NCBI GenBank assembly: GCA_026388095.1
Contig: JAPLKL010000049.1
Coordinates: forward strand, 1 to 52,304
From: Elusimicrobiota bacterium
GTDB taxonomy: Bacteria > Elusimicrobiota > Elusimicrobia > UBA1565 > UBA9628
Reading direction: 5' to 3'
Length of the DNA: 52,304 bases
Below are positions 48,285 to 52,304 of the stretch, one piece after another. A program made the position numbers and the translations under genes. The notes below the pieces were generated by a model, which was given only the letters and a program-made list of their open reading frames with translations, was not told where the DNA came from and did not search any database. Position 1 is the first letter of the stretch. Every line of letters starts with the position of its first letter.

Positions 48285-49057
48285 GCCATCGGGTCCTGAT
48301 CACGGGCGCGACTTCGGGCCTGGGGAAGGAATTGGCCATGCAGCTGGCCCAGGAGGGCTTCCTGTTGGCTCTGACCGGGCGGCGCGAGGACCGCTTGAAC
48401 GAACTGGCCGCGGCGGTCAAGGACGCGGGCGCGGGCGGAGCGCTGGCTTTGGCGGGCGATGTGACGGACGTGGCGGCCGTGCAGAGGCATCATGCGCTGA
48501 TCATGGAGCGCTTCGGGGGCTTGGACTGGGCGATCCTGAACGCGGGGGTGTCGAGGTCGTCGGACGCCAAGGAGCGCTTCAGCGCGGACGATTTCCGGCT
48601 GGTCTACGGGGTGAACGTCTTCGGGATGGCGAACTGGATCGAGGCGGTCCTGCCGGGCATGCTCAAGGAGAAGGCGGGGACGATCGTGGGCGTGGCCAGC
48701 GTGGCGGGGTATCGGGGCATCCCGCGCTCCGCGCCGTACAGCTCGAGCAAGGCGGCGGTGATCTCGCTGCTGGAGTCCCTGCGCGTGGACCTGCGGGGCA
48801 CGGGGGTGAGGGTGGTGACGGTCTGTCCGGGCTTCGTGCGCACGGAGATGACGGCGAAGTGGCGCGACGAGGACATGCCGTTCTTGATGGAGCCGAAGGA
48901 CGCGGCGCGGGAGATGATCGCGGGGATCAAGGCGGGCCGCCGGGTGGTGGATTTCCCGTTCCCTTTCTCGACGGCGGTCAAGTACGTGGTCAGGAACATG
49001 CCGGGCTGGCTCTACGACCGGGTGGCCAGCCCGGGCACGAAGCGCCGGGCGAAGTGA
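48281..49057 (+). CDS. Classical short-chain dehydrogenase/reductase
   Basis: 258 residues from the ATG at 48281, with GGAGG 5 bases upstream. Cofactor motif ITGATSGLGKELAMQL, with GRREDRL suggesting NADP. NAG motif ILNAGVSRS. The catalytic Ser-Tyr-Lys set is VASVAGYRG and YSSSKAAV. CPGFVRTEMTAKW follows. The C-terminal part (RRVVDFPFPFSTAVKYV) resembles membrane-associated SDRs of the YqjQ/DltE type. The last 247 bp recur at 49672-49918. Substrate unknown. Confidence 0.88.
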   Translation: MSHRVLITGATSGLGKELAMQLAQEGFLLALTGRREDRLNELAAAVKDAGAGGALALAGDVTDVAAVQRHHALIMERFGGLDWAILNAGVSRSSDAKERFSADDFRLVYGVNVFGMANWIEAVLPGMLKEKAGTIVGVASVAGYRGIPRSAPYSSSKAAVISLLESLRVDLRGTGVRVVTVCPGFVRTEMTAKWRDEDMPFLMEPKDAAREMIAGIKAGRRVVDFPFPFSTAVKYVVRNMPGWLYDRVASPGTKRRAK

Positions 49058-49070
49058 ATCGCTTTACTCT

Positions 49071-49589
49071 ATGAACCGCCACTCTCATATTCGAGGTTTG
49101 CTGTTGGCATTCTGTGCTGCGACCATATTTCCCCTCGTGGCAAACGGCTGGGAGGTGAAGGTCCAGGATGTGGACCGACGGATGAAGGAGGCCAAGCGCC
49201 GCTGGTCAGAGGCAAATGGCAACCGGGCCGTTCAAGCCATCCTGCGTGATGCCAAGCAGGTCAAGAAGCCGGGCTGGGTCCAAAGGATTCCTGCCGGCTC
49301 GGCCAGCATCTATTGGTCGGAAACCTATGGCGGCAAGACCTACCATTTTAGTGCCAGTTACGCTAAGAGTGTGAAGAATCTGAACAATCCAGGCCTGTTC
49401 TTTGCGGCCGCTCAAAATGCGGCGCTCTCAGAATTAGCAAAGGTTCTTGGCACGTCGAATACAAGCACGGAAGACATGGCTCCGTTCCCCTCCTCACGAA
49501 TTCAAGATGTTGTCTGGGGCACGGTCGCCATCGATTGGTATGCGTCCAAAGACGGCACACTGTATGCCCTGCTGGTGGCTCCGCGCTGA
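49071..49589 (+). CDS. Secreted protein of unknown function between SDR repeats
   Basis: 172 residues from the ATG at 49071, 13 bp after the SDR stop. Signal peptide at about 1-25 (GLLLAFCAATIFPLVANG). The mature part has DVDRRMKEAKRRWSEANGN, SASIYWSETYGGKTYHF and the C-terminal VAIDWYASKDGTLYALLVAP. The last segment recalls LPP20-like proteins, where a conserved tryptophan/tyrosine strand ends the domain. Its GC content is visibly lower than that of the flanking genes. It lies exactly between the two copies of the SDR 3' end, suggesting it arrived by insertion. Confidence 0.65.
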   Translation: MNRHSHIRGLLLAFCAATIFPLVANGWEVKVQDVDRRMKEAKRRWSEANGNRAVQAILRDAKQVKKPGWVQRIPAGSASIYWSETYGGKTYHFSASYAKSVKNLNNPGLFFAAAQNAALSELAKVLGTSNTSTEDMAPFPSSRIQDVVWGTVAIDWYASKDGTLYALLVAPR

Positions 49590-49671: not shown

Positions 49672-49918
49672 GGTGGTGACGGTCTGCCCGGGCTTCGTGC
49701 GCACCGAGATGACGGCGAAGTGGCGCGACGAGGACATGCCGTTCCTGATGGAGCCGAAGGACGCGGCGCGGGAGATGATCGCGGGGATCAAGGCGGGCCG
49801 CCGGGTGGTGGATTTCCCGTTCCCGTTCTCCACGACCGTGAAGTACGTGGTGAGGAACCTGCCGGGCTGGCTCTACGACCGGGTGGCCAGCCAGGGCACG
49901 CGCAGGCGCGCCAAGTAG
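49672..49918 (+). pseudogene. 3' fragment of a second SDR gene
   Basis: An in-frame 82-codon copy of the C-terminus of the SDR at 48281-49057 (VVTVCPGFVRTEM through DRVASQGTRRRAK). It lacks the cofactor and catalytic parts, and an open frame extends upstream only into unrelated sequence. It is probably the remains of a tandem paralogue or of a duplication made when the gene at 49071 was inserted. A short hairpin (49918-49932) follows its stop. Confidence 0.85.
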
Positions 49919-51080: not shown

Positions 51081-51533
51081 TCAGAAGATGGGAGCGGTCT
51101 CCTTGTAGAAGTCGTCGAGGGTCGGGGTCCTTTTGGCAGGGCCGGACAATTCTCTGAGCAGGCCTTCCCAGCCGCAGAAGTGGTGGTTGGTGGCGCGCAG
51201 CGCGCCGCGGCTGTCGTAGAACACGGCTCGGTCCCATTCGAGGCCTTCGTCGTGGGTGTCGTGCTCGGCCGCGATGAACCAGGAGCCGTCGGGGAAGCGG
51301 AACGTGACGAGCTTGGCGTCGGCGACTGGTTCGGGGGCTTTGGCCTCGCCGGGGAGGCCTTGCTGGAGGTCGACGGCGGGTAGGCTGCGGATGTCGTCTT
51401 TGCAGGCGGCAAAGCGCGCTTTCCAATCAGCGACGAAATGGTGGGCTGAGTAGGCGCGGATGCCGACGAGGATCAGGATCAGCGCCGTGACTATTGCGAG
51501 AATCCGGCCAAGCCAGGTGAGGATCCTCTTCAT
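51081..51533 (-). CDS. Membrane-anchored protein of unknown function
   Basis: 150 residues from the ATG at 51533. One N-terminal membrane helix (about 5-27, LTWLGRILAIVTALILILVG) and an extracytoplasmic domain with FRFPDGSWFIAAEHDTHDEG, AVFYDSRGALRATNHHFCGW and a C-terminal ETAPIF. No family recognised. It begins 38 bp after the probable attC site, on the same strand as the gene behind the site. Confidence 0.65.
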   Translation of the reverse strand: MKRILTWLGRILAIVTALILILVGIRAYSAHHFVADWKARFAACKDDIRSLPAVDLQQGLPGEAKAPEPVADAKLVTFRFPDGSWFIAAEHDTHDEGLEWDRAVFYDSRGALRATNHHFCGWEGLLRELSGPAKRTPTLDDFYKETAPIF

Positions 51534-51570
51534 ATCCCGAATCACAACGAGGTCATTGCCTTTCTACCAA

Positions 51571-51646
51571 GCCTTAACGAAACGCTGAGCCGCCGCCGGG
51601 CGCATGGGCCGACCGCTTGAGCGGGCGGCTCATGCGAATGTTAGAC
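51571..51646 (-). other. Probable integron attC recombination site
   Basis: On the minus strand the site opens with GTCTAAC (51646-51640), which fits the R'' core RYYYAAC, followed by ATTCGCATGAGCCGCC. It closes with GGCGGCTCAGCGTTTCGTTA and AGGC (to 51571), close to the R' core GTTRRRY but with one extra base. The centre is a near-perfect 17-bp inverted repeat (51601-51636). Size (76 bp), folding and end sequences are those of an attC. It starts 10 bases after the stop codon of the gene at 51657, the standard place in a gene cassette. Confidence 0.65.
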
Positions 51647-51656
51647 AGTGCATTGT

Positions 51657-52103
51657 TCAATAGTCGCCCTTTCTCAGTCGGGCCAGCGCCTCGTCCGGCG
51701 AGCCGGACTCATCGAGAATCTGGCGGAAACGTTCTTGCGTTAGGAGTTCCTTGTCGTATTGGACATCAAAGGTGCTCGATCTCTCCGAAGCCACATAGTA
51801 ATTGGCGGGGTCGAACCCCGCCGGCTTGCCGGCCAAGTGGCGAGGCGGCACAATGAAATCAGCTTTCTTGAGCAAGACGCGGATGCCCACAACGCCCCAA
51901 CAATGGGCCATCAGTGACTTCATCCCCGGGGAATCGCTCGCCAAGGGACCAAAGGATCTCACGTCCCGGCTGAACTCAGGCAGTTCCCTTGCCGCTTTGA
52001 GCCACTCCCTGGCTGCGACCACGGCATGTACTTGATTAAGATTCAAGTTCGGCTTGACCTCGTTCCTGGGCAAGCCGATCTCGTCAGCAGACAAGAGGGC
52101 CAA
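51657..52103 (-). CDS. Unknown protein, probable integron cassette gene
   Basis: 148 residues if the TTG at 52103 is used (AGAGGT lies 9 bases upstream). The frame stays open about 75 bases further upstream but has no ATG or GTG, so the N-terminus is uncertain or lost. Visible segments: LNLNQVHAVVAAREWLKAAR, MAHCWGVVGIRVLLKKADF, FDVQYDKELLTQERF and a C-terminal LARLRKGDY. Soluble, no known family. GC is lower than in the core genes. The stop lies 10 bases before the attC core, as in a typical cassette. Confidence 0.6.
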   Translation of the reverse strand: MALLSADEIGLPRNEVKPNLNLNQVHAVVAAREWLKAARELPEFSRDVRSFGPLASDSPGMKSLMAHCWGVVGIRVLLKKADFIVPPRHLAGKPAGFDPANYYVASERSSTFDVQYDKELLTQERFRQILDESGSPDEALARLRKGDY

Positions 52104-52205
52104 ACCAAAGCAGACCTCTCTGATTTCTTTTAGGCGAAGAGGAATTGGAGGGGAACCCTTGAGACGCTTGTTTCGCCCATTTTGTTAGGGCCGGGGAAAT
52201 TTCCA

Positions 52206-52304
52206 TCAGCCGATCTCCAGCGCCGTGTAGACGCTCACGGGTAGCCCCATGTACTTGAGGATTTCCTTGTGCTGAACCGTAAGGCCCTGAAACTGTCGGT
52301 GGAC
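52206..52304 (-). CDS. C-terminal end of a protein cut by the window edge
   Basis: The last 32 residues of a minus-strand frame that enters from the right edge (VHRQFQGLTVQHKEI, then LKYMGLPVSVYTALEIG) and stops at TGA 52208-52206. No family can be assigned. The 102 bp between it and the cassette gene hold nothing I can support. Confidence 0.4.
   Translation of the reverse strand, partial: VHRQFQGLTVQHKEILKYMGLPVSVYTALEIG

Follow-up and report, generated by a model that had tools for sequence, protein, structure and literature searches.

Integrons are gene-capturing devices best known for spreading antibiotic resistance, and contig JAPLKL010000049.1 of an Elusimicrobiota bacterium (assembly GCA_026388095.1) raises the question of whether a palindrome near its right end belongs to one. 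The window analyzed here is this entire contig (C49; 52,304 nucleotides). An earlier note, made from the letters alone, had taken the palindrome for an integron attC site lying behind a gene. Our analysis shows that the stretch at 51572-51646 on the minus strand is almost certainly an attC site at the 3' end of a gene cassette, and that the cassette belongs to a chromosomal integron system of this bacterium.

On the minus strand, the elements appear in the order that the earlier note had described: the stop codon TGA (51659-51657) of a 148-amino acid (148-aa) frame is followed by ten bases (ACAATGCACT), GTCTAAC (51646-51640), an imperfect palindrome and CGTTAAGGC. The distance from R'' to R' is 75 bases (51646-51572). 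Measured against the published attC consensus, with the crossover between G and TT of R' (PMC12901181), the R'' box GTCTAAC (51640-51646) agrees with RYYYAAC. The L'' arm (CGC-AT-GAGCCG, 51626-51636) pairs with the L' arm (CGGCTC-A-GCG, 51583-51592), leaving unpaired bases that are unequal between the two sides, as is typical of attC sites. Scanning the 52-kb window for R'' and R' with at most one mismatch plus a strong L stem returned this site and its own complement as the sole matches. The same scan gave no match in 40 dinucleotide-shuffled versions of the window.

Several observations weigh against this identification. Unconstrained single-strand folding of the site is unremarkable on its own (z = -1.64), and the R' box GTTAAGG (51572-51578, minus strand) misses the final Y of GTTRRRY, its only departure. 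Furthermore, no neighboring attC is present on the contig, and the 5' cassette boundary predicted from R'', GTTAGAC, does not occur in the remaining 658 bp of the contig. Similar departures in R' occur at genuine array sites of the same genome (GTTATCG and GTTAGAG). The extra R' base, which had been read as a possible sign of wear, is real; by itself it does not indicate wear, because the R' of an integrated cassette belongs to whatever follows, the bases after its G being downstream sequence if cutting occurs at G|TT.

The identity of the site rests on its relatives. In 15 homologous 75-bp sites from several genomes, the stem of the L'' and L' arms is kept by compensatory changes: 95.8% of the cells are paired and six pairs changed on both sides, a level reached in none of 500 shuffles. 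A covariance model (R2) built without the window site, from 19 attC sites of the same genome that all belong to a second family of about 100-105 bp, detected the window attC with 26 bits (E = 2.5e-4). A covariance-model search had been proposed as a check in the earlier note. A scan against Rfam yielded no attC family and no relevant match.

Further attC sites or an intI gene at or beyond the right end of the window had been named as confirmation. The contig ends there, but both are found on other contigs of this genome (4.6 Mb in 79 contigs, 97.6% complete). Two integron integrases score above the NCBI TIGR02249 cut-off, one on contig C21 and one on C39. They are 63% identical, their frames are intact, and the R, H-x-x-R, and Y motifs of tyrosine recombinases can be read from the alignment; their closest matches come from Elusimicrobia metagenome-assembled genomes. 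The two intI genes are oriented toward attI and the cassettes. Both proteins (L009:5170-6468 and L010:12931-14154) are extended at the N-terminus by about 80-105 residues; this extension has no Pfam match, is common to Elusimicrobia and several Nitrospira integron integrases, and was not detected in those of the other phyla fetched. Beside both intI genes, an upstream divergent gene (L009:4040-5104 and L010:10489-11532, minus strand) encodes a HATPase_c_4 plus Fic-like_C protein; the two copies are 45% identical, and no such protein was seen beside the other integrases fetched.

According to the covariance models built in this analysis, the genome holds about 30 attC sites in two families of about 75 and 100-105 bp. 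The window site has four near-identical relatives, on C18, C13, C45, and C31; C8 holds a fifth, weaker relative. The second family has more than 20 copies, many of them in arrays and some directly behind the two intI genes. Multi-cassette arrays are present on C45, C69, C75, C21, and C8, and the C45 array includes a site of the 75-bp family. The left end of C69 begins inside an attC (L036:1-53) and that of C75 begins at GTTAGGC (L131:1-10), fitting its first attC, so that both contigs break at or near attC sites. In the same-genus genome nzgw215, a 75-bp family site (91 bits; L068:13585-13659) is the second in an array directly behind intI. Its R'' and the preceding R' pair at four of four bases, as do its own R' and the next R''.

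This pairing reflects a rule for cassette ends. In an integron, each cassette is cut between G and TT of R' (PMC12901181), so that one end of the cassette is formed by its own R'' and the opposite end by the TTRRRY of its own R'; with this cut, the partner of an R'' within an array is the R' of the preceding site. We compared the four variable bases in each of 34 neighboring pairs from ten arrays. R'' matched the preceding R' perfectly in 20 of the 34 pairs and its own R' in two. The matched bases totaled 101, compared with a mean of 59 and a maximum of 76 in 10,000 shuffles, and this score is lowered by some pairs that come from weak model matches. Such matching of R'' to the preceding R' is the mark that cutting at G|TT leaves. 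Behind the integrases of C39, C21, and nzgw215, the first cassettes obey the rule with a GTT site located 120-157 bp after the intI stop codon, which identifies attI.

Two other explanations of the palindrome can be weighed against these results. A dispersed repeat of the repetitive extragenic palindromic (REP) or miniature inverted-repeat transposable element (MITE) type, merely resembling attC, would account for several near-identical copies at dispersed loci. However, the copies vary exactly in the R'' and R' bases outside the AAC and GTT core, while the inner part of the site is conserved. They sit behind intI in arrays whose cassette ends match, and they keep one orientation relative to genes. 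The matching of R'' to the preceding R' in arrays contradicts such a repeat, and we consider it very improbable. A rho-independent terminator of the 148-aa gene is more improbable still: a GC-rich palindrome does follow the stop codon, but there is no T run, and the layout of R'', R', and unpaired spacers is kept in 15 relatives, which together contradict a terminator.

The palindrome is thus a genuine attC of a chromosomal integron system, one more instance of a type of element already known. The earlier note had proposed 51657-52103 as the cassette. The kind of element, a gene followed by attC, agrees with our results, but the proposed extent is probably not the full one. The open reading frame (ORF) at 51657-52103 on the minus strand encodes 148 aa from a TTG codon, and the frame remains open upstream to 52165 without any ATG, GTG, or TTG beyond 52103. 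At 52165 begins the end of a repeated element (52165-52304, minus strand), consisting of the last 32 codons of an ORF and about 44 bp and identical to the end of contig C47. Because the frame runs open into this element without a start codon, the cassette gene is probably 5'-truncated by it. The boundary GTTAGAC is missing because the last 140 bases of the contig are this repeat. The assembly break therefore falls in the repeated element and not in an attC. What the window shows at its right end is a repeat, which gives no evidence for the suggested edge of an integron or of a cluster of attC sites lacking an integrase (CALIN). We found no intI or attI on the contig, and with a single attC it does not qualify as a CALIN, defined by at least two attC sites and no intI.

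The repeated element is probably transposable. On C47, the repeat end abuts a gene for a metallo-beta-lactamase (MBL)-fold protein. This part of C47 (L201:8836-10973, minus strand) contains two MBL-fold (RNase Z-like) paralogues in tandem; the outer paralogue lacks its N-terminus where the element begins. The 32-aa C-terminal peptide of the element has no family match and two weak plasmid matches. The far side of the repeat was not found via the N-terminal half of the interrupted MBL gene or via an inverted copy of the repeat end. For the 148-aa ORF, no convincing match was obtained in Pfam, NCBIfam, PADLOC, PHROGs, or PDB, and no more than a single match, weak and partial, came from 56 relatives (36% over 62 residues, E = 3.2e-4). 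Directly downstream of the attC lies a 154-aa ORF (51081-51545, minus strand), which has no match among the 56 relatives. With no second attC behind it, this ORF is probably host sequence. The R'' matching GTTAAGG, CCTTAAC, does not occur within 6 kb downstream of the window attC, and the cassette is therefore the last before host sequence. Taken together, the window locus is an incomplete, element-damaged cassette. Farther to the left in the window, a duplication (48811-49055 and 49672-49916; 93% identity over 245 nt) covers the 3' end of a gene resembling short-chain dehydrogenases, the two copies flanking a 172-aa ORF (49071-49589) without an assigned function.

The setting of this cassette has two main readings, an attI platform beyond the contig end being a further possibility. 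The window site may close a multi-cassette array, either an integron or a CALIN, that continues to the right of the contig end, a reading to which we give slightly less than an even chance. Such arrays exist on C45, C69, C75, C21, and C8, with a 75-bp family site in that of C45, but the contig ends in a repeat rather than in an attC and no second attC occurs within 658 bp upstream. The cassette may instead be solitary, either inserted at a chromosomal target other than attI (attG-like) or left over from an array that has otherwise eroded away; here, too, the chances are close to even without quite reaching it. On C18, the site of the 75-bp family stands alone within about 20 kb, and that on C13 is nearly alone; the window R' is not complementary to R'' and has no matching R'' downstream, and insertion at attG is known from Loot et al. 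(2024), as cited in PMC12444791 and PMC12901181. However, the 5' boundary of the window cassette lies out of sight, so that it may still have a neighbor.

The chief surprise came from other loci of the genome, which resemble attI regions without an integrase. The attI region of C39 contains a promoter resembling the sigma-70 type (TTGCTA-17-TACAAT) and a core that ends in GACTCTATA|GTT. Homologous modules of about 155 bp without intI are found on C63 (L135:11652, minus strand), C8 (L132:8322, plus strand), and C67 (L136:9873, minus strand), with leave-one-out scores of 29.1, 24.8, and 16.3, respectively, and a similar module is present in a same-genus genome (L190, G006:C112). The C63 and C8 modules share 86% identity over 157 bp, their upstream flanks being unrelated, and the C67 module is 74.5% identical to that of C39 over 153 bp. 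Upstream of the modules on C63, C8, and C67, no trace of intI could be detected. The cassette after each module has an R'' that perfectly fits the crossover, an exact match that also served to find the sites. At C79, a sequence resembling attI beside a solitary site failed the leave-one-out score (-16.2) and was rejected. Tentatively, and with somewhat more doubt than belief, we propose a distributed integron, in which two intI loci are joined by integrase-less promoter-attI platforms at unrelated sites of the chromosome (C63, C8, C67, and also G006:C112), the platforms each being followed by cassettes and presumably served in trans; the window cassette would be one more stop. A small search of the open-access literature returned no description of integrase-less attI platforms; with such modules, the idea of integron platforms that work in trans could be put to a direct test.

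We infer both that IntI acts on the window attC and which strand it uses. The attC would fold as a single strand, and either of the IntI tyrosine recombinases encoded on C21 and C39 would cut at G|TT of R', excising or inserting the cassette. The window cassette lies last before host sequence, and its gene has probably been 5'-truncated by the repeated, probably transposable, element. Elusimicrobiota are absent from the integron-bearing phyla listed in a 2021 review (PMC8618304), and we found no earlier report of Elusimicrobiota integrons in the open-access literature. In our sampling, 26 of 295 Elusimicrobiota genomes encode an IntI above the cut-off. These data place chromosomal integrons that look functional in a little-known uncultured phylum. 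In addition, because the cassette ends follow the G|TT rule so closely here, comparing R'' with the preceding R' provides a simple sequence test of whether an array was built by IntI.

Sedentary chromosomal integrons are known for homogeneous attC families, such as the Vibrio cholerae repeats (VCRs) of Vibrio. The system described here shares with them a chromosomal location, several similar attC sites, cassettes without assigned function, and an IntI in the genome. In contrast to the Vibrio type, it has at least two IntI platforms, its numerous short arrays and isolated sites are spread over many contigs, its attC sites fall into two families (of about 75 and about 103 bp), and it belongs to another phylum. 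Like the CALINs and single attC sites reported by IntegronFinder, the window attC lacks a neighboring intI on its contig; it differs in being one site only, below the default CALIN threshold of two attC sites (PMC9024848), and in having IntI elsewhere in the genome. The atypical order in which intI reads toward the cassettes has been described for Treponema (PMC3607928), whose integrons likewise have an R-type GTT site between intI and the first attC, whereas the integrons described here come from another phylum, encode an IntI with an N-terminal extension of about 80-105 residues, and carry a conserved promoter in the attI module.
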